Source: Hondaea fermentalgiana
Taxonomy: Eukaryota > Sar > Bigyra > Thraustochytrida > Thraustochytriidae
Reading direction: 5' to 3'
NCBI GenBank assembly: GCA_014084085.1
Contig: NPFB01000001.1
Coordinates: 258,277 to 322,276, forward strand
Length of the DNA stretch: 64,000 nucleotides
Shown here: positions 29,881 through 63,997 of the stretch, in pieces
Layout: the number at the start of each line of letters is the position of its first letter
How positions within the stretch are numbered: the stretch's first letter is position 1
Translations under genes and position numbers: made by a program
The notes under the pieces: generated by a model
Database searches by the model: none
What the model was told of the DNA's origin: nothing
Seen by the model: the letters and a program-made list of their open reading frames with translations, nothing else

Positions 29881-30459
29881 GAGGGAAGGAGGAAGGAGGA
29901 AGGAAAACGAAGCAACGATCCAACGAACGCCGCCGCAGCCGCGTTTGCGAGAAGGCCCAAGCAGCTGCAGCTGCAGCTGCAGCAGCTGCAGCTGCTGGTG
30001 CAGGCATCGTTCGTTCTTGGTCTTCTTCTTCTTCTTCTTCTGTCTCGTAGGTCTCCGCTGCCGGCTTCTTGGTCTTGGGACCTCCGACCGACCGCGGACT
30101 GACAGTGACCTCAGCTTACGACCATGAACAAGCGGCGGTGGGGAGAGGGGAGACGGAGATGACGCTGAGCGCGGCTGGACCAGCGATGCGGGCGGAGGGG
30201 AACTCGGCGCATGCGCGGAGGTGGAGGCCGGTCGATGCAAGCAAACCCGGAACGAGCCAAGCGGCAGCAAGCAAACCTCGAACGAGCGCGAGGCCGAGCA
30301 AGAGAGGCCAGACAACAGTAGAGTAGAGCCGCGGCAGAGCCGAAACCCGCGCAGGGCACGACGAGAACCCTTGGCGCATTGGGTGCTGCTGCTGCCGCAG
30401 CCTGCGTAGTCCTGGCAGTCGCGCTAAAGTCGTGGGGCAAGACACCCGAGCAGACGGAG

Positions 30460-31656
30460 ATGAATCAAGTCAAGACAGCCGCGACAAAGATGCGCGCCGT
30501 GGTGATCGGCGGCAGCTACGCAGGTCTCATGGCCTGCAGAGCACTCGAACCCCTCGGCGTGGACGTGACGCTCGTCGAGAGAAACGAGTACTTCTTTCAC
30601 AAAATTGGCGGCACGCGCGCGTGCGTCAAACCCGGGTACGAAAACGAGGCCATCCTGCCTCTCAACCAAGCCCTCAAACGACCGGGATCCCGCCTCGTGC
30701 ACGGGTCAGCGCTCAAGGTCGACCCTGCGGACAACAAGGTCAAGGTCGAGCTGGCCAATGGCGAGCAGGAAACGATCGACTATGACAACCTCATTCTCGC
30801 CATGGGCCTCAAGCACGGCTATGGCCAGCTCCCGGAACGCATTCTCTCCAAGGACGACATGCTCAAGTACATGACATCCGAACAGGAGCGTTTGGCCGAT
30901 GCCGCGGCGGTGGTCGTCGTCGGCGGCGGCGCTCTCGGCGTGGAGACCTCGACCCAGATCAAGGCCACCCACCCAGACAAGGAAGTTCACCTGTATCATT
31001 CGCGCGATAAGTTCCTCAGTGCTGCCAAGCCTCCCATCGCCGATGAGACCTCGAATGCCGTTCTCGAGAAGATGGACCAGTATGGCGTCAAGCTCCATCT
31101 CGGTGGCGGGCGTCTGAGTGAAGAAGAGATTGCCAAAAAGCATCCGGGCGCGGTAATCATTCCCACGGCTGGCTGCCAACCGAGCGAAACGACCCTTTCG
31201 ATGCTCCCTAGCGAGTGGCTGCAGCCGGGTACCGGTGAGGTCAAGGTGCTCCCGACCATGCAAGTCGATGGGGCTCCATCGAACGTGTATGCAGTCGGCG
31301 ATCTCGCCGCGTCCGGCGACTTCAAGCAGGCAAAGTGGGCAAAGGATCACGTTCAAGTCGTCGCCAAGAACATCATGGGCGAAAAGGCAGAGTACGACCC
31401 CAGCCGACCAATCCCGTGGTGGTCGCTTCCCTATTCGCTGGCAAAATACCCGTACGTGCGGGCACGCACGTCTTCCCCTACGATGATCAACATGTACATT
31501 GGCGAAACCGACAGCGTCACACAGGCTTGGGGCATTCTCTTTAATGACAAGTTCACCCCAAATGTGAACCATCCTGACAAGGGTGCGAGCAAGGCCAAAA
31601 TGTTCGTTGGCATGCTCGACGGCAAGAAGGAAGGCAAGAAGAAGTCCAAGCTCTAA
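30460..31656 (+). CDS. FSP1/AIFM2-like FAD oxidoreductase A, C-terminal SKL
   Basis: A 398-residue FAD/NAD(P)H oxidoreductase from the first ATG (30460). The first Rossmann fold starts with AVVIGGSYAGL, followed by the conserved THRACVKPGYE-type loop (here TRACVKPGYE). A second, NAD(P)H-binding, fold has VVVVGGGALGVETSTQIK. The flavin-binding NVYAVGDLAASG motif is intact. This arrangement fits the AIFM2/FSP1 (ferroptosis suppressor protein 1) branch of type II NADH dehydrogenase-like quinone reductases. The protein ends in KKEGKKKSKL; SKL is a canonical peroxisomal targeting signal (PTS1). The upstream frame would add a hydrophobic AAAAAACVVLAVALK segment but lacks an ATG. A paralogue lies 820 bp downstream on the same strand. 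Quinone reduction is inferred. Confidence 0.85.
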   Translation: MNQVKTAATKMRAVVIGGSYAGLMACRALEPLGVDVTLVERNEYFFHKIGGTRACVKPGYENEAILPLNQALKRPGSRLVHGSALKVDPADNKVKVELANGEQETIDYDNLILAMGLKHGYGQLPERILSKDDMLKYMTSEQERLADAAAVVVVGGGALGVETSTQIKATHPDKEVHLYHSRDKFLSAAKPPIADETSNAVLEKMDQYGVKLHLGGGRLSEEEIAKKHPGAVIIPTAGCQPSETTLSMLPSEWLQPGTGEVKVLPTMQVDGAPSNVYAVGDLAASGDFKQAKWAKDHVQVVAKNIMGEKAEYDPSRPIPWWSLPYSLAKYPYVRARTSSPTMINMYIGETDSVTQAWGILFNDKFTPNVNHPDKGASKAKMFVGMLDGKKEGKKKSKL

Positions 31657-32476
31657 AATCTTATAAAAATCTTTGTCTCTTCTTTTCTCTCTCTCGCTCG
31701 TGAATTTCGTAGGCCCTTCACAAAGCTCATCTAAAACCGTTGTCTCCCCTTCCCGGCGGTTCTCTTGTGAAACATTTATCGCCCCTCCCCTCGTGAGCGG
31801 AGGCAACTTGTGCACATCGCCATTTCGTGTAAATAGTACTTGCTTTTCCGCCTTCTTGTCGTCCTATGTCAGAATCGAGGCCGGCGGGCGGTACTGCGAC
31901 ACCTTCGACACCGGCTTGCGTCTCGCTCACATCCGTCGTCCTAAAGGCCATGTGAGTGGTCATGACCAGCCAGCCGCTAAGGCCAGCAGTGCCGCCCTCC
32001 CGTCTCCCACCTGCTTGCCAAGTATATATATATGCATAATAACGCACCCCCGCACGCACGCGCGTGCACGCGCTCTGGGGCCGCATGCAGACAATGAATG
32101 TACGAAAGAATGCCTTGGCGCGGGCACTTCTCGGAAGCGCCATTGCGTGGCGGCCAAGCGCGCGCGGGCAGCCTGACAGAGTCTGCCAGGTTGGGTTGGG
32201 TAGGAGTTGCAGATGGCAGAAGTATACCATGGTATACTCCCAAAGACTTGGAAGGTTGGCTGGCCTCGGCGGGCGGGACGCCTGCAGCGGACGAAGGCCA
32301 TGCTGAGACCTCCGGCAGATTGCAGATGGTGACGGTGAAGGCAAGTCCCAAAAGAACAAGCCGCCGAGCAGGCTGCCTGGGTGGTGGCTGGCTGACTTGG
32401 AGCTAGCCTATAGCTGGCGAGGCCTGACAGTGATGAGTCGGCAGCAAAACGGAAAAGCGCAAGGACTCTCAAGACG
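31657..32476. other. Intergenic between the two FSP1-like genes
   Basis: 820 bp. It holds the 3' UTR of copy A and the promoter of copy B. Notable items are a (TA)n-rich stretch around 32021-32034 and an 18-bp perfect palindrome at 32221-32238. No other gene seen. Confidence 0.5.
32221..32238. promoter_or_regulatory. 18-bp perfect palindrome
   Basis: AGTATACCATGGTATACT is its own reverse complement. It lies 239 bp upstream of the copy B start in an otherwise GC-rich spacer. It could be a dimeric transcription-factor site; chance is possible. Confidence 0.5.
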
Positions 32477-33610
32477 ATGCGAGTCGTAGTAATTGGAGGC
32501 AGCTATGCGGGGATCGCCGCAACGAGGGCGCTCGAGGCCAGCGGCATCGACGTGACCCTCATTGAGAGAAACGAGTGGTTTTTTCATAAGATCGGCGGCA
32601 CGCGCGCGTGTGTCAAGCCCGGGTACGAGACAGAAGCCCTCTTGCCACTCACCCGGGCCGTCAAGAGGCCTGCGTCGCGGCTCGTGCATGGCGCGGCGCT
32701 TAATGTCAATGCTGCGGAGAACAAGGTCGAGGTCGAATTGGCCAATGGCGAGCACGAGACGATCGAGTACGATCATCTCATTCTTGCCATGGGTCTCTCG
32801 CACGGCTTTGGACAGCTCCCGGAAAAGGTCATGTCAAAAGCCGAAATGCTCGAGTACCTTAGGGCCGAGCAGGAGCGAGTTCGGGCTGCAAATGTCGTCG
32901 TCATCGTAGGCGGAGGCGCACTCGGAGTTGAGACTTCGACACAGATCAAAGCCACGCATCCAGACAAAGAGGTCCACCTGTACCACTCGAAAAAAACATT
33001 CCTCAGCGCCGCGACCCCTCCTGTCGCGGATGAGTTCTCGGATGCAGTCCACGAAAAACTCGAACAAATGGACATTGTAATGCATCTTGGCGGTGGTCGT
33101 CGCACAAGAGAAGATCTCGAAAAGGAACATCCAGGTGCGCTCGTCATTTTCACGGCTGGCTGCGCGGCAAGTGCATCGACGCTACAAATGCTCCCCGAGG
33201 AATGGCTTTCATCGAGTGGCGAGGTCAAGGTGCTTCCGACGCTGCAAGTTGACGGTGCGCCGTCCAACGTCTACGCTGTAGGTGATCTTGCTGCCAGTGG
33301 CGATTTCAAACAGGCAAGGTGCACAAAGGATCATGCCAAGGTCGTCGTCAGTAACATCAACGGTAAGAGAACAGTCTACAACCCAAGTCGTTCAAATCCA
33401 TGGTTCGCCTGTCTCGTTCCGTATCTCTGCTCTAGCTACGTGCGCGCTCGCACATCGTCAACGACTCAGGTGAGCCTGTACATTGGTGAGACAGATGGAA
33501 TTACGCAGGGCTTTGGTCTCGTCTTTTCTGACAAACTTGCCGCCAAAGCAAATCATTCTGACAAGGGAGTCAGCAAGGCGAAAAAGTATCTTGGCCTCGG
33601 TGACGTTTAA
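32477..33610 (+). CDS. FSP1/AIFM2-like FAD oxidoreductase B
   Basis: A 377-residue paralogue of the gene at 30460-31656, probably from a tandem duplication. The same motifs are present: VVVIGGSYAGIA (FAD), TRACVKPGYE, VVIVGGGALGVETSTQIK (NAD(P)H) and NVYAVGDLAASGDFKQA. The two differ along the C-terminus: copy A ends in SKL, whereas this one ends in GLGDV and so lacks PTS1. This suggests that one copy acts in peroxisomes and the other in the cytosol or on another membrane. Neither has the N-terminal myristoylation signal of animal FSP1. AATAAA occurs at 33760 on the plus strand, 150 bp after the stop. The gene is convergent with the receptor-like gene. Confidence 0.85.
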   Translation: MRVVVIGGSYAGIAATRALEASGIDVTLIERNEWFFHKIGGTRACVKPGYETEALLPLTRAVKRPASRLVHGAALNVNAAENKVEVELANGEHETIEYDHLILAMGLSHGFGQLPEKVMSKAEMLEYLRAEQERVRAANVVVIVGGGALGVETSTQIKATHPDKEVHLYHSKKTFLSAATPPVADEFSDAVHEKLEQMDIVMHLGGGRRTREDLEKEHPGALVIFTAGCAASASTLQMLPEEWLSSSGEVKVLPTLQVDGAPSNVYAVGDLAASGDFKQARCTKDHAKVVVSNINGKRTVYNPSRSNPWFACLVPYLCSSYVRARTSSTTQVSLYIGETDGITQGFGLVFSDKLAAKANHSDKGVSKAKKYLGLGDV

Positions 33611-39351: not shown

Positions 39352-39938
39352 GAGTCGGAGCCGCTCCGCCGTGGTGCGCGCCTGGGCGGTGTTCCCACCA
39401 GCGCGCCCCTCGCCGCATGAACGTTGGTCCAACTTCTTGTGCGATTTGCGGCTTCACGTCATGACCCGGACTCGGACTCACAACTTGGTGCCTTGACTTG
39501 GCTCGGCTCTAACCCTGACTCTGACTCACTCTGACTCTGACTCTGTCTCTGTCTCTGACTTTGCCTTTCACGTGACGCTTTGCACGGCGCACATTCACTT
39601 CTTAAAAGTTAGTCGGCGGTGCCCCCCCCCCTTCCCATACATGAATACAAGATATGTCTCGACGTTTGTTGCCTTCCTGACAGACAGCCTGCGTGCTTCA
39701 ACGCTTGCTTCCCGCTACCGCTGCCGATGGCTCATGATGATTGATGGCGATGATGATGATGATGACGATCAAGAAAATCGATGAAAGATAGCCGTTGGCA
39801 AGGCCTCGGTTATAAAAACGTTGCACAAGATCGGTTTCGTGGCGGTTATCCCATCGGCCCGTTTTTTCCATTGCGACCGTGCCACAAGGCAGACCAGAGT
39901 TGCGTGAACCCAACGACGGAGGTTTGCGCGCGCTCGCG
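39352..39938. promoter_or_regulatory. Divergent intergenic region, receptor-like / CEP162
   Basis: 587 bp between two divergent starts, presumably with both promoters. It contains CTCTGACT-type repeats (about 39510-39560), a run of C (about 39625-39634) and (GAT)n (about 39745-39765). Confidence 0.4.
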
Positions 39939-42900
39939 ATGGAGAAGAGCTTCGAGAACTACCTCGCGCACTCGGACGGGGCCGCGAGTCTCCTCTCCAG
40001 CCGCGCAAACTCGAGGTACGGGGACGCGCACCTGCACGGCGGCCATGGGGCCCATGGCGGCCATGGAGGCCACGGTGGGTCTCCCGAGTATGCCGCCGAC
40101 CTCGGGTCGAGCGGGTCGCCGCACGCCGGGATGGACGCCCTGATGAGCGCCTCCCCCGGCGGTGCCCCGCTCGGAAGCTGGGACGGCTACATGGACCATC
40201 TCGGTCTTGGTGATGACGGCGACCTGGGCGGGAGCGACCTCGACGAGGTGATCGGGGCCGTCGACACGGATGAGGACAGTCTCGGCATCTACACTACTGC
40301 CCGCGCAAAGTCACTTGGGATGGGTATTGCTCCGCAAGGCGACGCCGCATACGACTTTGATCTCGATCTGAGCAAGCCAAACAAGGATGCGGACAAGAAG
40401 AAAAAGGCCAAGAAGAAGAAAAAACTCAAGCGCGATAAGGAGTACGAACGCGCAGACCGTGAACGTCGCGAAAGACAACGAAGACTTAGCACGGAGGAGC
40501 GTATGCAAGATCTTCTGGGCGAAGTCAAACAAGACTTTGCACGAGAAAGAATGGTCAAGGAAGCTGAAGCCGAGGCACTTGCTAAAAAGAAGGCAGCACA
40601 GGAACAAGAGAAGGCCGCAGCAGCTGCTGCTGCAGCGGATCGTGCTCGACAAGAAAAAGATACTGAAGCAGGTGTTCGCGATGACGATGATCTGCTCTCT
40701 GACTCGCTCGAAATGTCATCGGCAGACTTTCAGGTTGGTGGCTACTTATCCCGTTCAGCAAAAGACGCCGTGGCGAATGTGGAACTTGGTTCCAAATCGG
40801 AGATCGAACACAAGGACTATAGCGTGGACAGCGCCGATGAGGGAGCTCCGGACAAAGGTGTTCGAGGCGAAAGTGCTCAAAAAGAAGATGCCCCGGATGA
40901 TAATCAAGAGGTTTCGGCCCATGATGCAGTGAAAGCACTTCGCGATAAGCTAAGCGAGCACATGAACACCGGCGTCCTGCCAGAAAATCTTGCCAAGGAA
41001 ATCTCCTTTGGGGACCTTTCGCAGCTCATGCAGGCTTCGCATGAAGAAAGTGAAGAAGACGAGATGGGAAATGCGCAAATGGAGCCAACATCGAAATTGA
41101 GCAGCGGTTTTGAGAATGATTTTGAGAACACAGACAGAGATACCGCCGAGCTTCACAATGACGACGCACAAGCAGCAGCAGATCAAATATATCGCTCATT
41201 TGAGGAACACGCTAAAGATGATGATGACGACCCCGACGACGACGACGACGACGACAACGACGATGAGGCTTATGAGAGCGCGGAATTTGACGCTGAGAGT
41301 CCGCGAGGCGAGCCGAACCCCCGCTCTGATGCTGATGAGACCCCAAGTCATCAAGAGCAAAAGTCTTCCGAGAACGACTCAGCAGCGCTTGAATCCGGTA
41401 GCCGTATTCGCGCTCGACTCTTTGACTGGAATCAGTACTATGAGGGCCGTGTATCCAAGGTCCGAGGGGACGGTCTTGTGGATATTTCTTTTGATGATGG
41501 GGAACATGTCGACGGCGTCGATCCGTCTGACATTCAGGTGATCGACTCTTTTCCTCGCCAAGAGCAAAGCGTTTTCGAGGGCGACCGCGCCAATGATGTG
41601 AATGATGAGCAAGACATCGAAGGGACGGCTACGATCGACGACGTGCCCAAACAGAGTACGGAGAAGGCAGTCTTCGAAGCGGGAGATGAGGGCGCTGCTG
41701 AGTCACGAAGTGATGCTCCCCAAATCAAGGCCACCTCGTCCTCTAGCCATGTGCAAAGGTCAAACGAGGGTGACGGTTTCGCTCAGGTAGAGGAAACAGA
41801 CGATGAAGAAGTATCATTCTCTGGTGATGCGCCCGTCGCCAGGCCCGAGACGCCACCCTCACCGTCTCAATCGCCATCACCCTCACCGTCACAAGCTATT
41901 CAAGAGGGCCAGGTCAATTCCGGTGACGAACAAGGTACGCCGGAATCTGATGAGGATCAGAAAATCTCGTTTGCGGGAGAATCCGAGGCATCTGTTGCGC
42001 AAGATGCGGCTTCCGGAGTCAGGCCAGTCGAAGAGACGCAGAAGAAGTCGCGAGCGGATGAGCTTAAGGCAATGTTTTGGGACCCAATCGCATCGCAGCA
42101 CTCGTCTGCGCCTCCTTCGCCGCCACAATCACCGACTCCGCCTCCACCGCCATCGTCGCCTCCATCCCGTAACGTAAAGTCGAGTAAAACCTATGATGTG
42201 CGTCCACACAGAGGCGCGCGGGTTTTTCGGCGGGAAGATGAGGAAAAGATTAGTGCTCGCGGTTCGATGAGGCAAATGCGACGACGGCGACGATCACAAT
42301 CGCCACCGCCGCCACCGCCCTTGGCTCCCCCACCTTTTCGCGCTTCAAGGTATGACCGCAGCGAGGAAAAATCATACGCGACAGACTTTAACGCCACCGG
42401 CTCGCTTTTGCAATGTGATGGAAGTCTCCAGCACCAAGTGCACGAATTACGCCTGGAACTCGCCGCCTCCAAAGAGGCGCTCCACGAGACAGAGCGGGCG
42501 CTCGCACAATCGAAGATGCGTGAGCGGGAGCTATCGACGACGGTTGATGCGCAAAAAGCCGAGATTTTCGGGCTTCATGCCGAGCTCAAAGACACTCGAT
42601 CGACAAATGCGGTGCGTGGATCGCTTCGATCAATACTGCGTGAAAGCACGGAGAATACTCTCCCGCGTGAAGAGCTGATGCGCATCGAACGCGAGATGGC
42701 CGAGCAAGATCGACTTCTGATAGGCTACCAAAAGGAGAACGAAAAGCTGGTGGCACAGCTCGACAAAGCGGAAGCTCGCGCAGAAGAGGTGCGGGAATCC
42801 TTGTACCGCGCAAACATGCGTGCGACACGTGACCTCAACTCACAATCGGGCGTCGAACAAGGTCACAATGACGTAGGCGCTGATCTGAGAAGGAGGCTAG

Positions 42901-44714
42901 CCGCTGATGAGAAAATCCGAGCTCTGGAGGAGGAGGTTGAAGACCTGAAGCGCAGACTTGCGTCTCGGAGACGCGCGGAAGAGAAGACTGCGAGCTTGGC
43001 CTCTTCTGAACCCCATACCAGCAACGAAGAGTCCCCACGGGAACTGATTCAAGAATTGCGCAAGGAACTGGCGGAGGCTCGTTTCGAGCACTTGCGTGAG
43101 GCCAAAGCTCTCAAAGAAAAACTCGCTTGGTATGTGGAGAACCAACAGCTTCTCGAAGAACATGCTGCGGTCATCGAGGAGCAGCGCGAACGCATCCGCG
43201 TGCTTGAAACAGGCAAGGAAAATGATGCGTCTTCAAAATCATCGGTGGCGCTTGTTCCCGTTTCGGCCTCTTCACGTCGACCAAAGCAATCGCTTCCGAG
43301 CGACCTCAAGCGCATTCGCACGCTTGAAAAACAGGTCCGCGAACTCGAGGAGGCCCTCCGTAAGAGAAATCCAGACTGCATTGCAAACCTCATTTTGGCC
43401 GCAGGCCCAACCGATGCAGAAAAAGAGACACGGCGCGAACTTCGGGAGCAAGTGGCGGCTTTGAAGGAAGAGCTCGAAAGCAAAGCCAAGATGCACGCCT
43501 CTCGAATGCGCTCCTTGCGTCAGGAGCACGAGCGCGTTAAAGTGCGCTATGAGCGTCTTTTGGACGAGAAGAGGGGCAGCGAAGGAAGGCCGAGCTCAAG
43601 CAGCAGTACAGGCGCTCCGTCCCCAAGCAAGCATTCGCATATGCCCTCGCACCATCAGGACGCGCATCAGGATAACCCATCAGGTACCCCGTCGCTTTCT
43701 GGGGAGGCACGAATTCAACAGCTCGAGCAAGAGCTTGTCCGCGTGCGTGAATTTTACCGAAAGAAGATCGAGGACTTGTCGAAAAAGTCGAGCACGGCGC
43801 TTCGCGCTGCGCGTCGCGAGGGACCTGTTCCGCCCGCGACGGCTTCGGCTCAGCGTGATCTCGATAGACTCCGCGCGGCGAAGACTGCTCTCGAGGCCCG
43901 CGTTGAGGATCTTGAGGCTGTTTTGTCCACCGACAAATCGAGACGCGCGCTTGCTTCTTTGGAGGCCCGTCTGTCCAGCGCTCAAGAGGAAAATGCTTCT
44001 CTCAAGGCAACACTTGAACACTTTCACGGACAGTCTCGGGCACAGCAGGAAGAAAGTCCCGAAGACCCTGCGACAGACCACCCACGTCCCGAACTTGATG
44101 ATGGCAACGATGTTCGGCCTCCTCGCGACACGGGCATGAGCGATGAGGATGCTAATGATGTTGCCAGCGATGGAGACAACGACGTCGACGAGGAGACTTC
44201 GGCCCTGGTGGCCTTTCTGCGTGAACAAAAACCTGCGCAGCGCAAGCCTGCAGCGGCTCGGACACGAGGCAAGGTCGATGACGCCAAACCGCAAGATCAG
44301 AGTCTTGCGTTGCGCGCCAAAGTGCAGGTCCTCGAAGCGGAGAATGCGCGCGTAGCAGCGCGCTGGACCGCTGCTCTGGAACGATCTGAGGATGCGGTGC
44401 GAAGACTTCGCTTGGCGAACGAGGAGTTGGAAGCGCGTCTACATGAGGCGAAACGCCAGCTTGACGAGCCGCTAACACCGTCCATGGTCCAGCAGCAAGC
44501 ACTTACACGCCGACTCAATGATATGGAGGCTCGTTTTCAAGCGCGGGAGCGGGAGCTTGAACTCATCGTCCACAATGTCAAGCATCGGGCAGAGATGGAT
44601 CTTCACGCGGCGCAATCTCGCTTTGACGCTGCGCTGGCTACAAAGAATGCAGAAATCCGGCATTTCCGTGCCGAGCTTGACGCACTTCTTTCTGCTGCCC
44701 AAAGCTTAGCCTAG
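39939..44714 (+). CDS. CEP162: CEP162 homologue with Tudor-like insert
   Basis: A 1591-residue coiled-coil protein from the ATG at 39939. The N-terminus MEKSFENYLAHSD is followed by Gly/His-rich, basic (KKKKAKKKKKLKRD) and acidic poly-Asp stretches. Residues about 487-540 form a Tudor/agenet-like barrel: RIRARLFDWNQYYEGRVSKV and LVDISFDDGEHVDGVDPSDI. From about 830 to the end it is almost all coiled coil. The segment RIRTLEKQVRELEEALRKRN then PDCIANLILAAGP (near 1148) closely matches the CEP162 signature, as does the following KVRYERLLDEK. CEP162 binds microtubules at distal centrioles and helps build the ciliary transition zone. The Tudor-like domain is not something I know in animal CEP162. 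It fits with katanin, SSNA1 and LRRC9 in this window. Confidence 0.82.
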   Translation: MEKSFENYLAHSDGAASLLSSRANSRYGDAHLHGGHGAHGGHGGHGGSPEYAADLGSSGSPHAGMDALMSASPGGAPLGSWDGYMDHLGLGDDGDLGGSDLDEVIGAVDTDEDSLGIYTTARAKSLGMGIAPQGDAAYDFDLDLSKPNKDADKKKKAKKKKKLKRDKEYERADRERRERQRRLSTEERMQDLLGEVKQDFARERMVKEAEAEALAKKKAAQEQEKAAAAAAAADRARQEKDTEAGVRDDDDLLSDSLEMSSADFQVGGYLSRSAKDAVANVELGSKSEIEHKDYSVDSADEGAPDKGVRGESAQKEDAPDDNQEVSAHDAVKALRDKLSEHMNTGVLPENLAKEISFGDLSQLMQASHEESEEDEMGNAQMEPTSKLSSGFENDFENTDRDTAELHNDDAQAAADQIYRSFEEHAKDDDDDPDDDDDDDNDDEAYESAEFDAESPRGEPNPRSDADETPSHQEQKSSENDSAALESGSRIRARLFDWNQYYEGRVSKVRGDGLVDISFDDGEHVDGVDPSDIQVIDSFPRQEQSVFEGDRANDVNDEQDIEGTATIDDVPKQSTEKAVFEAGDEGAAESRSDAPQIKATSSSSHVQRSNEGDGFAQVEETDDEEVSFSGDAPVARPETPPSPSQSPSPSPSQAIQEGQVNSGDEQGTPESDEDQKISFAGESEASVAQDAASGVRPVEETQKKSRADELKAMFWDPIASQHSSAPPSPPQSPTPPPPPSSPPSRNVKSSKTYDVRPHRGARVFRREDEEKISARGSMRQMRRRRRSQSPPPPPPLAPPPFRASRYDRSEEKSYATDFNATGSLLQCDGSLQHQVHELRLELAASKEALHETERALAQSKMRERELSTTVDAQKAEIFGLHAELKDTRSTNAVRGSLRSILRESTENTLPREELMRIEREMAEQDRLLIGYQKENEKLVAQLDKAEARAEEVRESLYRANMRATRDLNSQSGVEQGHNDVGADLRRRLAADEKIRALEEEVEDLKRRLASRRRAEEKTASLASSEPHTSNEESPRELIQELRKELAEARFEHLREAKALKEKLAWYVENQQLLEEHAAVIEEQRERIRVLETGKENDASSKSSVALVPVSASSRRPKQSLPSDLKRIRTLEKQVRELEEALRKRNPDCIANLILAAGPTDAEKETRRELREQVAALKEELESKAKMHASRMRSLRQEHERVKVRYERLLDEKRGSEGRPSSSSSTGAPSPSKHSHMPSHHQDAHQDNPSGTPSLSGEARIQQLEQELVRVREFYRKKIEDLSKKSSTALRAARREGPVPPATASAQRDLDRLRAAKTALEARVEDLEAVLSTDKSRRALASLEARLSSAQEENASLKATLEHFHGQSRAQQEESPEDPATDHPRPELDDGNDVRPPRDTGMSDEDANDVASDGDNDVDEETSALVAFLREQKPAQRKPAAARTRGKVDDAKPQDQSLALRAKVQVLEAENARVAARWTAALERSEDAVRRLRLANEELEARLHEAKRQLDEPLTPSMVQQQALTRRLNDMEARFQARERELELIVHNVKHRAEMDLHAAQSRFDAALATKNAEIRHFRAELDALLSAAQSLA

Positions 44715-58509: not shown

Positions 58510-61185
58510 TCACAAGAGCTGAAAGCTACGTGCATACCACGCCAATACACCGCGGGTCTTGGACCTCAATCGAGGGGCCAAAATAGTAGGGTCAACCGGT
58601 CGAAAGGTGACGGTGTAGCGGCTTCCGCGCGTCATTCTAAGAGGAATCGAATGGCACAAGCTTGTCCACTCGGTGATAAGACTCCGCGGCTTGACCACTT
58701 GCAATGGTTCGGAAAGTACGACCGCGCCAGCTTGCGAGCGCAATTCAATTTCCAGTCGCGGGTTCACAGCGTCTTCCTGGCCGCCCCACATGAGACCCAC
58801 AATCTTGAGGTATGTTGCGTTCGAGGTGACGTGTCGCCACTGCTCCACACGAGTAGCCGCTGCGGAGAGGCCTTGCTTGGCGTGCCAGCCATAGGCCATG
58901 GTGGATGGCGCCTTTTGCATATGCACGCGCGTTCTGAACTCGTTCATTTGCCCCGTTGGCTTGACACGACGCGCATCAACAAATTTGACGAGTCTCACCC
59001 ATTTGATACATGTGCACCCATACCAGTTGGGCACCACAAGACGAATGGGAAATCCATGGTTGGGCGGAAGCGGCTCACCATTGAGCTCCGTGGCAAAGAA
59101 CATTCCCGTGCTTATAACCTGATCCCACGTAAAAACCCAGCTCGCGCCCTTCGCGCCACCTGCGGTCTTGATGTGCTCGTCGTAGCCCTCGACAAGAATG
59201 GCGCGGCCGTCGGAAGAAGCGCCGGCCGCAGGAAGGTAATCTTTCAAGAGGTCACGTACTCTGACGCCACGAGTCCACTGTGCTTGTGACAAAAGGCCAA
59301 AGTGCCACACGCGCGTGTTTCCCGAGCACTCCATGACGCCAGTGCCTACGTGCGATCCAACGTCGTGGATCTCCTGAGCCGAGAAAGTGTGGAGAATTTG
59401 ACCACTGACAGACTGCACTTGCACCTTCCACGTCTCCCTCGAAAGCGCCATGGCATCCAGTGTACCAGGGAGTCCGGTCCGAATGTAAAAGGCCGACGCA
59501 GGGGTGGTCTGCAAGAGCGGGGGCGTGAGTAGGGCGAGGTCGACAGAGAGTCGCATGGCTAGCTCTGAGCTATGGGGAGTTCCAAAGGTTTTGCTTCGGC
59601 CACGAGCATATTTTTCCGAGAAAGGAGCTACAGCGTCAAGTTCCCACTCGCCCTCCCGTGCAAGCTGTGTGGGAGGGCCAAAACACGGTTCGCCTTGCAC
59701 AGGTTGACGAAATACGCGTCGCTTGAGCCCGAGGGAGTCTGTCTCGTCCACATCGTCAACACCGTCATCAACAGGCGCAGACGGCACGATCTCTCCTGCA
59801 TGAATGGTGCCGATTCGGTACATGCGCGTCGTTTCAATCGCTACATCTGAATGGCCCTGTTCATCGAATGTTTCCGTAGCATTGTATCCAAGATACGGTA
59901 ACATGATCTCTTTCCCGCCAGGATGAAAATCAAGCCAACGCGTCACGTCGAGCACATCGCGACCGAGAACTATCCATGCGTCATGTGCGCTTTGGTGCTT
60001 TGCGACCTCTGCAGCCGAAAAAAGTGCACCTGCAGGAGGCTCGCGTTGACCTGAAGCGTGGGAGAGCGCCCCATTGGAGTTGCTCGTCGCTTCTTGCACA
60101 TTGGCGAGGTTACTTTTGGATCCGTGCTGAGACGGCGTTGCAGCTTCTGCAGCGGCGTGCCGCGCAGCGAGTTCGTCCAGAGTAGGACCAAAGTGACCGT
60201 ACCCAGTCTCTTGCATTTGACCCATGTAGACAGTAGTAGCAGTTCCGAGCACAAGAACGAGCGCGAGAACACGAAAGTGGCGACGGCTCCACGTCTTTAT
60301 CGACGCAGCTGCATGAAACAGAATGCGTGGCATCAAACTCCACAGTCCGCCAACGAGAAAAAACCAGGTGCCCACAAATTTTTGCGGGACGAGGAGCAAG
60401 AGTGCATTGGCAAAGGGATCTGTGTATCCTGAAAGGAATGCAAAGTTGCTTGCAAACGTGGTGTGGTGGACATTGTGATGTGCGTGGGAAACAAAGACCA
60501 AATTCAGAAGCGGGGCGGACGCCCACGTCTCGCTCACGTGCGAGTACCAGTGGCCCACGTATGCAAGCTCAAAGAAGGCAGAGATGGCGAGCGTGCACCA
60601 GCGCAGACGAGCATTGGTGCTCGAGGCTGCCAGAAATACCAATGGAAGGAGAAAACAGAGCGGCGGAGCAGACAGCTTGGTTGGGTCAATGTGATGCTCT
60701 TGGAAGGAGTCCGCACTTTGACGAAGAATGGGCCATCGATGGAGCACTTCTGGATTATCCAACACGACATGAGAGATGGCGCTGCCCAAATCGCCCCATA
60801 GATATGCAAAGATAATTGGAAGTGCCATCGTCCACCACCACGATGCGTGTTCTACGGGGACCTTTTCCTTGTTTGCGCGCTGCAAACGCTGCATGTGGAG
60901 ATCTTGCCAGTCTCGAACGACGAGAACAGCAAGGTAGAGCAGGATTCCGGACGTGACGAAGTCCAGAAACCCGCGCACAAGATCCGAGAACGAGAAACCC
61001 CAATGTGGACGGGCCTCGCTATCTTGAGCGGCATCTTGATTCGAACCATCACAAGATATACTGTCTGCATCCACAGAAAGTGAGGTGAGCGAGTCCGCGC
61101 GGGAAGGGTCCGAGAGTTGGTCGCGGCGCTGGGGCGGAAAGTCGTCGTCGGGTTGCCATACGCAACATGGGTCTCCAAGCTCCAT
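58510..61185 (-). CDS. Three-module fusion: TMEM189/PEDS1-type desaturase, cytochrome b5, sulfite-oxidase-like Mo domain
   Basis: An 891-residue protein from the ATG at 61185. Residues about 70-300 are a TMEM189/Kua (CarF, PEDS1) membrane desaturase: three to five hydrophobic segments with the His boxes SHVVLDN (H139), FQEHHIDP (H164, H165), GHWYSH (H212, H216) and SHAHHNVHH (H234, H236, H237, H240, H241). Residues about 388-465 are cytochrome b5: WIVLGRDVLDVTRWLDFHPGG (heme ligand H421) and EQGHSD (H445). From about 570 to 770 comes an oxidoreductase molybdopterin domain: GVMECSGNTR (C620, likely Mo ligand) and ELNGEPLPPNHGFPIRLVVP then WYGCTCIKWV. The last about 100 residues look like the Mo-cofactor dimerisation domain. 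Plasmanylethanolamine desaturases need electrons delivered by cytochrome b5; here the donor and a Mo reductase or oxidase are in one chain. The pairing with a Mo domain is not one I know. It is convergent with SSNA1. Confidence 0.85.
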   Translation of the reverse strand: MELGDPCCVWQPDDDFPPQRRDQLSDPSRADSLTSLSVDADSISCDGSNQDAAQDSEARPHWGFSFSDLVRGFLDFVTSGILLYLAVLVVRDWQDLHMQRLQRANKEKVPVEHASWWWTMALPIIFAYLWGDLGSAISHVVLDNPEVLHRWPILRQSADSFQEHHIDPTKLSAPPLCFLLPLVFLAASSTNARLRWCTLAISAFFELAYVGHWYSHVSETWASAPLLNLVFVSHAHHNVHHTTFASNFAFLSGYTDPFANALLLLVPQKFVGTWFFLVGGLWSLMPRILFHAAASIKTWSRRHFRVLALVLVLGTATTVYMGQMQETGYGHFGPTLDELAARHAAAEAATPSQHGSKSNLANVQEATSNSNGALSHASGQREPPAGALFSAAEVAKHQSAHDAWIVLGRDVLDVTRWLDFHPGGKEIMLPYLGYNATETFDEQGHSDVAIETTRMYRIGTIHAGEIVPSAPVDDGVDDVDETDSLGLKRRVFRQPVQGEPCFGPPTQLAREGEWELDAVAPFSEKYARGRSKTFGTPHSSELAMRLSVDLALLTPPLLQTTPASAFYIRTGLPGTLDAMALSRETWKVQVQSVSGQILHTFSAQEIHDVGSHVGTGVMECSGNTRVWHFGLLSQAQWTRGVRVRDLLKDYLPAAGASSDGRAILVEGYDEHIKTAGGAKGASWVFTWDQVISTGMFFATELNGEPLPPNHGFPIRLVVPNWYGCTCIKWVRLVKFVDARRVKPTGQMNEFRTRVHMQKAPSTMAYGWHAKQGLSAAATRVEQWRHVTSNATYLKIVGLMWGGQEDAVNPRLEIELRSQAGAVVLSEPLQVVKPRSLITEWTSLCHSIPLRMTRGSRYTVTFRPVDPTILAPRLRSKTRGVLAWYARSFQLL

Positions 61186-62170
61186 TCCGTTCGTCTCGCC
61201 ATCGCCATCGGAGTCACGTCCACAAAGGCACGCCGACCTGTGAGTTCGTCAACAACAACATCAACAACAAAAACAGCAAAAAGGAGGAAGGAATGCGTCG
61301 TACCCCGGTTTGTGAATGGTTAGATGAATTGTTTGTTTGTTTGTTTGGTTGGTCTGTCTGTTCAACGATCATTGTTCATCATCCGTTCTCGTCGTCACCC
61401 TGACAACATCATAGGTCGACGTACCATTGCCCATCGCAAGCAAGGAAGTCAATGCCAAAGGGAGACAAGGGTCCGCCTCCCACGCCCTCGCTATGGCCTG
61501 CTGCTGGGAAAGCTCTTCCGTTTGGAATACGTAGCGCGTTCACCGGAAACCCGAGCGCGGTCGGGCCCTCGGTGGTGACCTCGGCCATGCCAAAGACAAG
61601 GGCCGTGGCGCGGGCGGCCGACGAGGTTGCACGGCGTCTTCGCTGGCGCAACAGTTGCGCGCGCTGCGCACATCCCCTCTCATCTTTGCCCATGGTGTCT
61701 TGTCTTTCTTGCACAGGACGTGAAGGTTTTGCTGGTGCTTGCTTGCCCGGCGCGCCGCGTGACGGCAACTTTATATGTCCGATTGAGCGTCCCGAGGTTC
61801 GCTCTCACCTTTGTGATGTGACGATGTTTGTTGCAAATGATGATGATGGTGGCGTTGGCGCGAAGAGACAAAGAGACAAAGAGAAAGACGGACGGATGGA
61901 CGACGAAGCCCAATTAGTAATATGAAAAACATAACCAAACTCTGCGTATCGAGATTTGGCGGCCATTTTTGAGCGAACTTGTCATGGTTCCGTTTTTGTT
62001 GTGGCTCGGGTTTCGGCAGGGCCAAGAAGACGATTTGGAGGACTGCACATCACGGTGACAAAAAGTAAACATGAGCTTGATAAGAGAGAAATGAAAAAAT
62101 ATAAAGGACAGGGTCATGAGGGCAGTCAGGGTTCAGAGTTTCGTAGCCATGTTTTTCGATTTTTGGTTCG
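61186..62170. other. Intergenic region upstream of fusion gene
   Basis: 985 bp between the start of the fusion gene (minus) and the stop of the orphan gene (minus). It holds the fusion gene promoter. A weak 157-codon frame at 61452-61925 is listed separately; otherwise nothing is recognised. CAACAACAT-type triplets occur near 61250-61280. Confidence 0.4.
61452..61925 (+). CDS. Doubtful small ORF with two CxxC pairs
   Basis: A 157-codon frame opening at an ATG. It contains CARCAHPLSSLPMVSCLSC, two CxxC pairs spaced like a zinc ribbon, and a charged C-terminus, but no family match is evident and a competing open frame exists on the other strand (61409-61768). It could be chance in a GC-rich spacer. 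Confidence 0.2.
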   Translation: MPKGDKGPPPTPSLWPAAGKALPFGIRSAFTGNPSAVGPSVVTSAMPKTRAVARAADEVARRLRWRNSCARCAHPLSSLPMVSCLSCTGREGFAGACLPGAPRDGNFICPIERPEVRSHLCDVTMFVANDDDGGVGAKRQRDKEKDGRMDDEAQLVI

Positions 62171-63997
62171 CTAGCGATTCGCACGTGGCATTGCTGCGCG
62201 GGACTCGCCGAGAATACTGTTTTCTCGCTCGACAACTTCCCCCAGCGAGGGCATGGCCATGAGGTTTGGGTACAGGTGACTGACATTTTGGAAACATGTA
62301 TGCACAGTGTCACCGACGATCTTGTACTTGGAGCGAGCAATCATGGGTTTGCCTTTATAGGTATTCCCAAAGGATTGCCAGACGAGCTCACCACGCTCCA
62401 TCAGCATGGGGATAACGTGGACAACGACCATCCAAAACTGTAGTGGGTGCAAAAACTTTAGCGTTGGACTCCCTTCCACGGCACCCTCAAGAATTGTTCG
62501 TGCAGTGTGGTCAGAGGATATGTACATGAAGGTATTGAGGCAGAAAATATTTCTGCCGACCGGGTGCGACGGAACGAGGTCAGCGTCTGGAAGGAGGAAA
62601 GAGCGTGCAAAGCGCGGGTCTCTCAGATTGACAGGAAGTCGCGTGATTCTGTTGTCAAAAATGCCGTCAGTCTGTGTTGTTTTCGCGATGCTCATGAGAG
62701 AAAGGAAATGGTGCGGGCGAAAGTACTTTGTCATGACGCGAAGGCCTGCAGCGCGTAATGTCAAAGGGATGTGGTCGAGGCGCAAGATATCTGGGACGCG
62801 TTCGATGGAGGGAATGGCTTCGTCCTGAATGGACTCGTCGAACTCGCAGAGAGGGATGCCCATCGTCTCACACGCTATGACGACGAGGTTTGGATTTTGC
62901 GACCATTCGGTTCTGTTTGCAGGCACGGCGTTTGGGTTGAACCGCATGCTGGTGTTTGCGCCAGCCTCGCTGCAGCTCGTTCCGTCTTCGCCACTGCTCA
63001 CGCTGCCCGCAAAGGGGCTCGGGGCAGCAGCACTTCGTGCTCCGGACTGAGCTCGTTTCCGCTTCGAGTCTCTGGGGTCGGCGATCTCCGCATCCGCGAT
63101 CGAATATTCAGCCTTGAGCGGAGATGGCGAGGTGGTGTGAGACAGTGGTGTTGTTGCCGTCTCGTTGAGGTTATAGCCAGAAAGTATGGGCGGAGGCGGA
63201 CGCGGGCGCGGGATGGGCGGGGGCGCGACGCCACCAGGTGCATGATAAGCATGAGGAAATTGAGGGTGTGAAGGATGAGGAGGATGTTGTTGATGAAGAG
63301 CAGGAGGAGGGGCAGCGCGAGGGGCATTCGGTCGACTATGCGGACCGTTGCCGTCGGAAGTACCCGCGGCGTGGTTTTGCTGCCGAGGGCGCGCAGCGCT
63401 GGTGTTGCGACGGGACTTGCGCATGTTTTCCGGAAGTCGAAGGTTTTCGTGGTAGCCCTGGCCTCGGAAACCGTGCTGGCCAATGTTTATCGGGTCCCCC
63501 TTGGCCGTGGTTCGATCTGCAAAACAGGGCCATACATTTTGTCTGCGCAGCTCGATCAGGACGGCGGCCTCGACCTCGCGAAGAAAAGGTTTTCGCCCGT
63601 CGGTGCCAGTACAGTGTGCTGTGATTGTTTTCCGAAAGGCCTCCTCGGGGCGTTTGAGCTGACCTTGGCGCGTTTCAAGCCACTTGGTAAAGCACGGTTT
63701 GGTGAGGATTCCACTTGCGTTGACGTAGACTTCGCCGGTGTGACGATTGCAATAAAAAGCGCAGAATTCCATGAAGACGTCGAGCGAGCTGTTTTCGCCG
63801 CTCGGGCGATAGGGGCTTGGCGCGCGTTCCCAGAGAGGGCTATGCCAAGGGTTGTGGTTGTGCGGAATTTCGCCAGGTCTGCCTGCGTAAGCGTTCGCCG
63901 AGCCGTGTGCGATCATGGGCTGCGCGAAGCCGCCGCGGTAGGGAGGGTTTGGGGGCACGGATGTCAGCGGTGCGTGCAGCATGCTCGGCATACCCAT
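62171..63997 (-). CDS. Orphan protein, may extend past the window
   Basis: 608 residues from the ATG at 63997 (three bases from the window end, so a further upstream start cannot be excluded). The N-terminal 190 residues have a compact region with DVFMEFCAFYCNRHTGEVYV and CFTKWLETRQGQLKRPEEAF. A Pro/His/Arg-rich low-complexity linker covers about 190-330, with HQQHPPHPSHPQFPHAY. The C-terminal 270 residues look folded: NPNLVVIACETMGIPLCEFD, VMTKYFRPHHFLSLMSIAKT, FCLNTFMYISSDHTAR and YKGKPMIARSKYKIVGDTVH. I do not recognise a family. A regulatory or DNA-binding role is possible given the architecture, but unsupported. Confidence 0.65.
   Translation of the reverse strand: MGMPSMLHAPLTSVPPNPPYRGGFAQPMIAHGSANAYAGRPGEIPHNHNPWHSPLWERAPSPYRPSGENSSLDVFMEFCAFYCNRHTGEVYVNASGILTKPCFTKWLETRQGQLKRPEEAFRKTITAHCTGTDGRKPFLREVEAAVLIELRRQNVWPCFADRTTAKGDPINIGQHGFRGQGYHENLRLPENMRKSRRNTSAARPRQQNHAAGTSDGNGPHSRPNAPRAAPPPALHQQHPPHPSHPQFPHAYHAPGGVAPPPIPRPRPPPPILSGYNLNETATTPLSHTTSPSPLKAEYSIADAEIADPRDSKRKRAQSGARSAAAPSPFAGSVSSGEDGTSCSEAGANTSMRFNPNAVPANRTEWSQNPNLVVIACETMGIPLCEFDESIQDEAIPSIERVPDILRLDHIPLTLRAAGLRVMTKYFRPHHFLSLMSIAKTTQTDGIFDNRITRLPVNLRDPRFARSFLLPDADLVPSHPVGRNIFCLNTFMYISSDHTARTILEGAVEGSPTLKFLHPLQFWMVVVHVIPMLMERGELVWQSFGNTYKGKPMIARSKYKIVGDTVHTCFQNVSHLYPNLMAMPSLGEVVERENSILGESRAAMPRANR

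Follow-up and report, generated by a model that had tools for sequence, protein, structure and literature searches.

The window analyzed here is a stretch of 64,000 nt from contig NPFB01000001.1 of Hondaea fermentalgiana. Its minus strand carries a gene that joins, in one chain and in this order, a Temptin domain split by a predicted intron, a membrane desaturase of the Lipid_desat family (PF10520), a cytochrome b5 domain, and a sulfite-oxidase-type molybdenum (Mo) module. An uninterrupted open reading frame (ORF) at 58510-61185(-) translates into 891 aa, in which Pfam recognizes Lipid_desat (25.9 bits), Cyt-b5 (62.2 bits), and Oxidored_molyb (98 bits), together with a weak Temptin_C stretch at the extreme start. 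The parts of this frame, with residues numbered on the ORF, are as follows:

60202..60990, minus strand: hydrophobic region of the desaturase with about six membrane-spanning helices by hydropathy, ORF residues 66-328
60412..60804, minus strand: Lipid_desat (PF10520), ORF residues 128-258, profile match with a cutoff of 26.4 bits
59803..60015, minus strand: cytochrome b5 domain, ORF residues 391-461, with haem ligands H421 and H445
58969..59442, minus strand: Oxidored_molyb (PF00174), ORF residues 582-739
59326..59328, minus strand: C620, aligned with the Mo-binding cysteine C185 of chicken sulfite oxidase
58513..58878, minus strand: sulfite-oxidase dimerization fold in a predicted model, about ORF residues 770-891

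The original prediction had read this frame as a desaturase, a cytochrome b5, and a Mo oxidoreductase in a single chain, an order borne out by the open frame, by the Pfam matches, and by homologs elsewhere. Among the 5 matches of one protein search and the 120 listed of 459 matches of another, three further proteins have the same domain order, and the three-way fusion is real. P0002 (923 aa) possesses all four domains and is 44% identical over the whole length, while P0007 (870 aa), also with all four, shows 45% identity over a 552-residue C-terminal piece; both come from JGI data and are probably of metagenomic origin. P0001 (698 aa), from an MMETSP transcriptome, is 59% identical over 77%. 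It is labeled complete by its source and starts within the desaturase, so that the N-terminal part lies beyond its coverage, and continues through b5 and Mo. The other 117 proteins listed with the C-terminal piece (P0008-P0124) contain a Mo domain only, according to precomputed Pfam labels. When the desaturase piece was the query, with 7999 candidates scored, the one protein obtained was P0006, composed of Temptin and Lipid_desat. A Temptin-desaturase thus exists apart from b5 and Mo; the Mo subfamily likewise occurs alone in bacteria, and the fusion joins the two via b5. Scoring in the protein searches was limited to the 8000 candidates sharing most words, so further fusion proteins may exist.

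P0002 begins with a full Temptin domain, and in the window the missing half of this domain lies upstream of the frame. The gene start is accordingly predicted to lie beyond 61185, which adds at the N terminus a fourth domain that an intron interrupts. The putative gene model is:

61693-61691, minus strand: predicted start ATG, in the context ACACCATGG
61425..61693, minus strand: predicted exon 1, encoding a basic leader and the first Temptin half, which aligns with the N termini of P0002 and P0007
61238..61424, minus strand: predicted GT-AG intron of 187 nt (GTACGT...CACAG), not a multiple of 3 and with 3 stops in every frame
58510..61237, minus strand: exon 2, encoding the remaining Temptin, the desaturase, b5, the Mo half, and the stop codon; open from 61248 to the stop
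61102..61534, minus strand: intron-split Temptin_C domain, spliced residues 54-135, 78.3 bits against a cutoff of 27

Once the intron at 61424-61238 is taken out, the two Temptin halves come together in frame and the predicted protein has 998 residues. On the window itself, the Temptin_C profile matches 61102-61233 (the exon 2 part alone) at 45.6 bits and 61382-61537 at 22.4 bits, the latter match being under the cutoff and entering the intron past one TGA. P0002 and P0007 score 79.3 and 71.2 bits with this profile, and by eye the window protein has a leader richer in basic residues than theirs. The original prediction was thus right about the frame at 58510-61185 and probably too narrow in its three domains, as the predicted Temptin exon lies upstream. 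A second Temptin redox enzyme is encoded elsewhere in the genome (L014, C14:529042-529329 region), in which copper type II monooxygenase and cytochrome b561 domains follow Temptin.

The Lipid_desat score of the window protein is borderline, at 25.9 bits for the 891-aa frame, 27.8 for the spliced N-terminal piece, and 27.3 when the whole genome was searched; P0002 and P0007 reach 40.8 and 30.2 bits, and the half domain of P0001 reaches 23.9. In the mouse desaturase TMEM189 (PEDS1), histidines 96, 121, 122, 187, 191, 215, 218, and 219 are described as essential in PMC7149458. Alignment places their equivalents as follows:

60769..60771, minus strand: H139, the first essential histidine (mouse H96), followed by D143
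60691..60696, minus strand: H164-H165 (mouse H121 and H122), with F161 shortly before
60538..60552, minus strand: H212-x3-H216 (mouse H187 and H191), in 4/4 fusions
60463..60480, minus strand: H236-H237-x2-H240-H241 (mouse H215, H218, and H219), in 4/4 fusions

All eight histidines are found in the window protein, P0002, and P0007, as are the five within the covered part of P0001. The boxes named in the original prediction (H139, H164/165, H212, H216, and, within its H234-241, H236/237 and H240/241) are present, and its haem ligands and C620 are likewise in place. D143 and F161, the equivalents of a required Asp and Phe, are also kept. A ninth histidine (mouse H131, CarF H113), reported as conserved in TMEM189 and not in FAD4 (PMC7149458, PMC9131029), is replaced by P174 in the window protein, by Pro in P0002, and by Val in P0007. 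P0006 keeps this histidine, as do 34 of the 36 PF10520 proteins aligned from bacteria, which are those of selected loci, mostly the best scoring rather than a random draw. The curated CarF model NF045946 has no match in the window protein (E ≤ 1), in P0002 and P0007 (E ≤ 0.01), or in the genome (E ≤ 10); with CarF-type controls it gave 345 and 250 bits for L107 and L109 (both under the cutoff of 500) and 36.6 for L104, and P0006 scored 41.2. The domain is thus best described as a PF10520 desaturase whose PEDS1 identity is only partly backed, with a weak lean toward the FAD4 and P0006 side. From the earlier label “plasmanyl-type,” the family, the eight histidines, D143, and F161 stand; the ninth histidine and a CarF model match are missing, and tree placement (see below) speaks marginally against it.

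In the cytochrome b5 domain, both haem ligands are found in 4/4 fusions, and the top-scoring b5 chain in a PDB search is cytochrome b5 type B. Elsewhere in the genome, a 937-residue frame (contig C187:311617-313947) has five separate b5-part matches, apparently tandem cytochrome b5 domains. The Mo half, by its residues and predicted fold, is assigned to the sulfite oxidase family with what appears to be a complete module. Cofactor and substrate residues align with those of sulfite oxidase (C620, R569, R625, H710, R715, K728), and the C620 cysteine is present in 4/4 fusions and in 117/117 listed single-domain relatives. Residues 531-891 adopt a sulfite-oxidase fold including the dimerization region in the predicted structure. 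Pfam PF03404 (Mo-co_dimer) finds no match in the window protein, so that this expected domain is borne out by the model and not by Pfam. At the position of chicken Y322, the fusions have Phe (4/4; F750 in the window protein), as do 86 of the 117 listed relatives, the remaining 31 having Tyr. The equivalent of the sulfite-binding R450 is R872 or R878, the alignment being compatible with either. Curated NCBIfam models for SorA, SorT, and SoxC gave 52.7-66.9 bits, short of their cutoffs of 420-600. The Mo half belongs to a subfamily of sulfite-oxidase-like proteins from bacteria, most of them exported, that is marked by the motif WYGCxC; identity to the 117 listed is 32-43%, and 86 of these have a twin-arginine motif within the first 60 residues, while none has the b5 HPGG motif. 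In the bacterial loci of this subfamily (L018-L097) the motif reads WYGCxCIKWV, and the three members examined all score below the curated NCBIfam cutoffs.

Six-frame searches of the genome (36.0 Mb, 238 contigs), which intron-broken genes could escape, turned up no second PF10520 match at E ≤ 0.001 and revealed neither a canonical CarF/PEDS1 nor a further sulfite oxidase. Besides the fusion, the PF00174 proteins are a nitrate reductase, whose single chain combines Mo, dimerization, and b5 domains (by eye and by profile matches), and a distant 370-aa protein. The latter (L012, contig C66, 1285-2397) has an N-terminal hydrophobic stretch and a distant MsrP/SorT likeness, with E about 0.002-0.005 in NCBIfam. 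An alkyl-dihydroxyacetone phosphate (alkyl-DHAP) synthase gene is present (7e-137 to 4bby), and a fatty acyl-CoA reductase-GNPAT-type acyltransferase fusion (L017, C163:253990-254214 region) contains NAD_binding_4, Sterile (under cutoff), Acyltransferase, and GPAT_C; it resembles Dictyostelium FARAT as described in PMC7375469. Because alkyl-DHAP synthase and this FARAT-like fusion are encoded, the organism likely makes ether lipids. No match to light-harvesting genes was found in the genome.

Every histidine of CarF is cytoplasmic, according to PMC9131029. In 30 of 32 CarF-type proteins, Lys and Arg are more numerous in the 20 residues before the first transmembrane segment (TM1) than in the TM1-TM2 loop, and in none are they fewer (the count covers 32 of 36 proteins, 4 being dropped because they had no motif or were too short). 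The Temptin-desaturases (window protein, P0002, P0007, and P0006) show the reverse pattern in 4/4 cases (5 versus 1, 9 versus 3, 4 versus 2, and 9 versus 1). In the fusions, loops 3-4 (3/3) and 5-6 (4/4) carry a net positive charge; that of the His-box loops is zero or negative. A low-confidence model (mean predicted local distance difference test score of 59.4) has helices at 66-105, 114-142, 192-217, 268-298, and 301-328 plus shorter ones. These charge patterns, in which the segment borders are uncertain, together with the N-terminal Temptin and the exported Mo relatives, suggest a luminal or outer location for the His boxes, b5, and Mo alike, opposite to CarF. We therefore propose that the desaturase, b5, and Mo share one membrane face, probably this one. 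Two points sit uneasily with this orientation: the stretch after TM6 has net charges of -2, +3, 0, and -1, with P0002 deviating, and Mo enzymes are stated in PMC5817353 to be virtually absent from the secretory pathway, which either speaks against a luminal face or makes it all the more remarkable.

What is observed is a single open frame carrying the domains in this order, the recurrence of that order in three further sequences, and the retention of the cofactor residues. Known membrane desaturases are supplied with electrons by NAD(P)H- or ferredoxin-dependent chains. We give an even chance to a single four-domain membrane enzyme with a Mo to b5 to di-iron electron relay. In such a relay, the Mo centre would oxidize sulfite (the likeliest, although putative, donor) or a similar small molecule, intramolecular transfer would reduce the b5 haem in the manner of animal sulfite oxidase, and electrons would then move one at a time from the haem to the di-iron site. 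This site would use O2 to introduce a double bond into a membrane lipid, presumably a plasmanyl ether lipid or an acyl chain. The direction of electron flow and both substrates are inferred. More tentatively, the protein may be a self-powered desaturase of the luminal or outer face, where NAD(P)H would not be expected, its Mo centre oxidizing sulfite or another reduced sulfur compound and its electrons reaching the di-iron site via b5; a luminal active face would explain the built-in electron donor.

The main rival to this relay has NAD(P)H-cytochrome b5 reductase feeding the fused b5, which would then be a hub for both the desaturase and a Mo domain that works either reductively, like nitrate reductase or mARC, or as a lipid-independent sulfite oxidase. 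We regard it as rather unlikely: no NAD(P)H reductase would be expected at a luminal active face, if the active face is luminal, and the fusion keeps His at the H304 position, unlike the nitrate reductase encoded in this genome, in which the residue is Arg. It is very improbable that a gene model or assembly artefact merged neighboring genes. We found no positive support for this, apart from the intron being a prediction only, and against it a single open frame spans both junctions, P0002 and P0007 hold the same fusion, and the transcript-derived P0001 covers desaturase-b5-Mo.

With regard to the lipid, the protein could be a PEDS1-type plasmanyl desaturase that produces plasmalogens and has b5 and Mo as accessory domains, or an acyl-lipid desaturase akin to plant FAD4 and P0006 that acts on a phospholipid acyl chain. 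We hold the former to be possible but doubtful: the ether-lipid genes and the status of the fusion as the sole PF10520 match found in the genome at E ≤ 0.001 favor it, against which stand the absence of any CarF model match and the replaced ninth histidine, although mutation of that residue in mouse strongly reduced rather than abolished activity, as reported in PMC7149458. A tree of 42 rows, in which the human PEDS1 and FAD4 sequences are approximate, adds to these objections. When left free, it unites the fusions in one clade (support 100/100) whose stem is long (3.44); the clade sits next to P0006 (support 92/30) and outside the CarF/PEDS1 set. In approximately unbiased (AU) tests of groups chosen after the tree was seen, and with long branches throughout, holding the fusions with the human PEDS1 and L107 gave p-AU 0.022, and with the whole CarF set 0.056, so that placement outside the CarF/PEDS1 group is marginal. 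The FAD4-type alternative, on which we are equally reserved, gains from the grouping of the fusions with P0006 and the approximate FAD4 sequence (p-AU 0.43, not rejected) and from the Temptin domain and H-I/V-V-L-D-N motif shared by P0006. Grouping with FAD4 alone gave 0.059, and the long fusion stem, the 92/30 value of the P0006 join, and the approximate FAD4 sequence speak against it; as light-harvesting genes were not found, it also has no obvious plastid role.

Targeted literature searches found no description of the fusion in the openly licensed PMC literature, and the original prediction likewise knew of none. All component families are known; the combination is new, and the orientation perhaps also. 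We know of no precedent for a desaturase driven by an inorganic donor or for a Mo enzyme that works in the secretory pathway of eukaryotes. If true, having a Mo oxidase and b5 beside a di-iron site would tie sulfur oxidation to lipid modification, and the fusion could serve as a one-protein desaturation tool. It suggests, without proof, a lipid-modifying enzyme bearing its own electron supply, and it opens two questions to experiment: whether PF10520 enzymes can act from the luminal side, and what enzyme, if there is one, produces plasmalogens in a protist where ether-lipid genes are present and canonical PEDS1 was not found.

Elsewhere in the window, neighboring frames at 30322-31650 and 32414-33604 contain Pyr_redox_2 flavin oxidoreductase domains, perhaps a tandem duplication. 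Two long frames, at 62171-63997 (608 aa), directly upstream of the fusion gene, and at 39819-44708 (1630 aa), have no Pfam match.

Compared with known systems, the fusion shares with PEDS1/TMEM189 and CarF the PF10520 domain, the eight essential histidines, and the required Asp and Phe, and with PEDS1 the b5 dependence. It differs from both in lacking the ninth His, the ITRHDFxETNG segment, and the CarF model match, and in having an added Temptin, extra C-terminal membrane helices, b5, Mo, and the inverted charge pattern. P0006 resembles it in Temptin followed by desaturase, in the TM1-TM2 charge pattern, and in the H-I/V-V-L-D-N motif, but its chain stops after the desaturase, keeps the ninth His, and is 25% identical in that domain. 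Three thraustochytrid genes with a TMEM189 domain, AuFAD1.2, ObFAD3.1, and ObFAD7, listed as fatty acid desaturases (FADs) in a 2025 comparative paper (PMC12258536), are likewise PF10520 proteins of a heterotrophic protist group and might be relatives; the main text of that paper has no word starting “molyb” or “cyt.”

Animal sulfite oxidase has the order b5-Mo-dimerization, whereas the fusion is membrane bound with a desaturase attached, carries a conserved CFGxP block in its b5-Mo linker, has Phe in place of Y322 together with the WYGCxC motif, and has a dimerization domain that escapes Pfam. The bacterial exported sulfite-oxidase-like proteins (P0008-P0124; L018-L097) share the Mo subfamily, WYGCxC, and the C-terminal region, but possess a Mo domain only (Pfam labels), often with a twin-arginine motif and without the b5 HPGG. 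Eukaryotic nitrate reductase also combines Mo, dimerization, and b5 domains on one chain; its order is Mo-b5-flavin adenine dinucleotide domain, and it carries its own flavin reductase.
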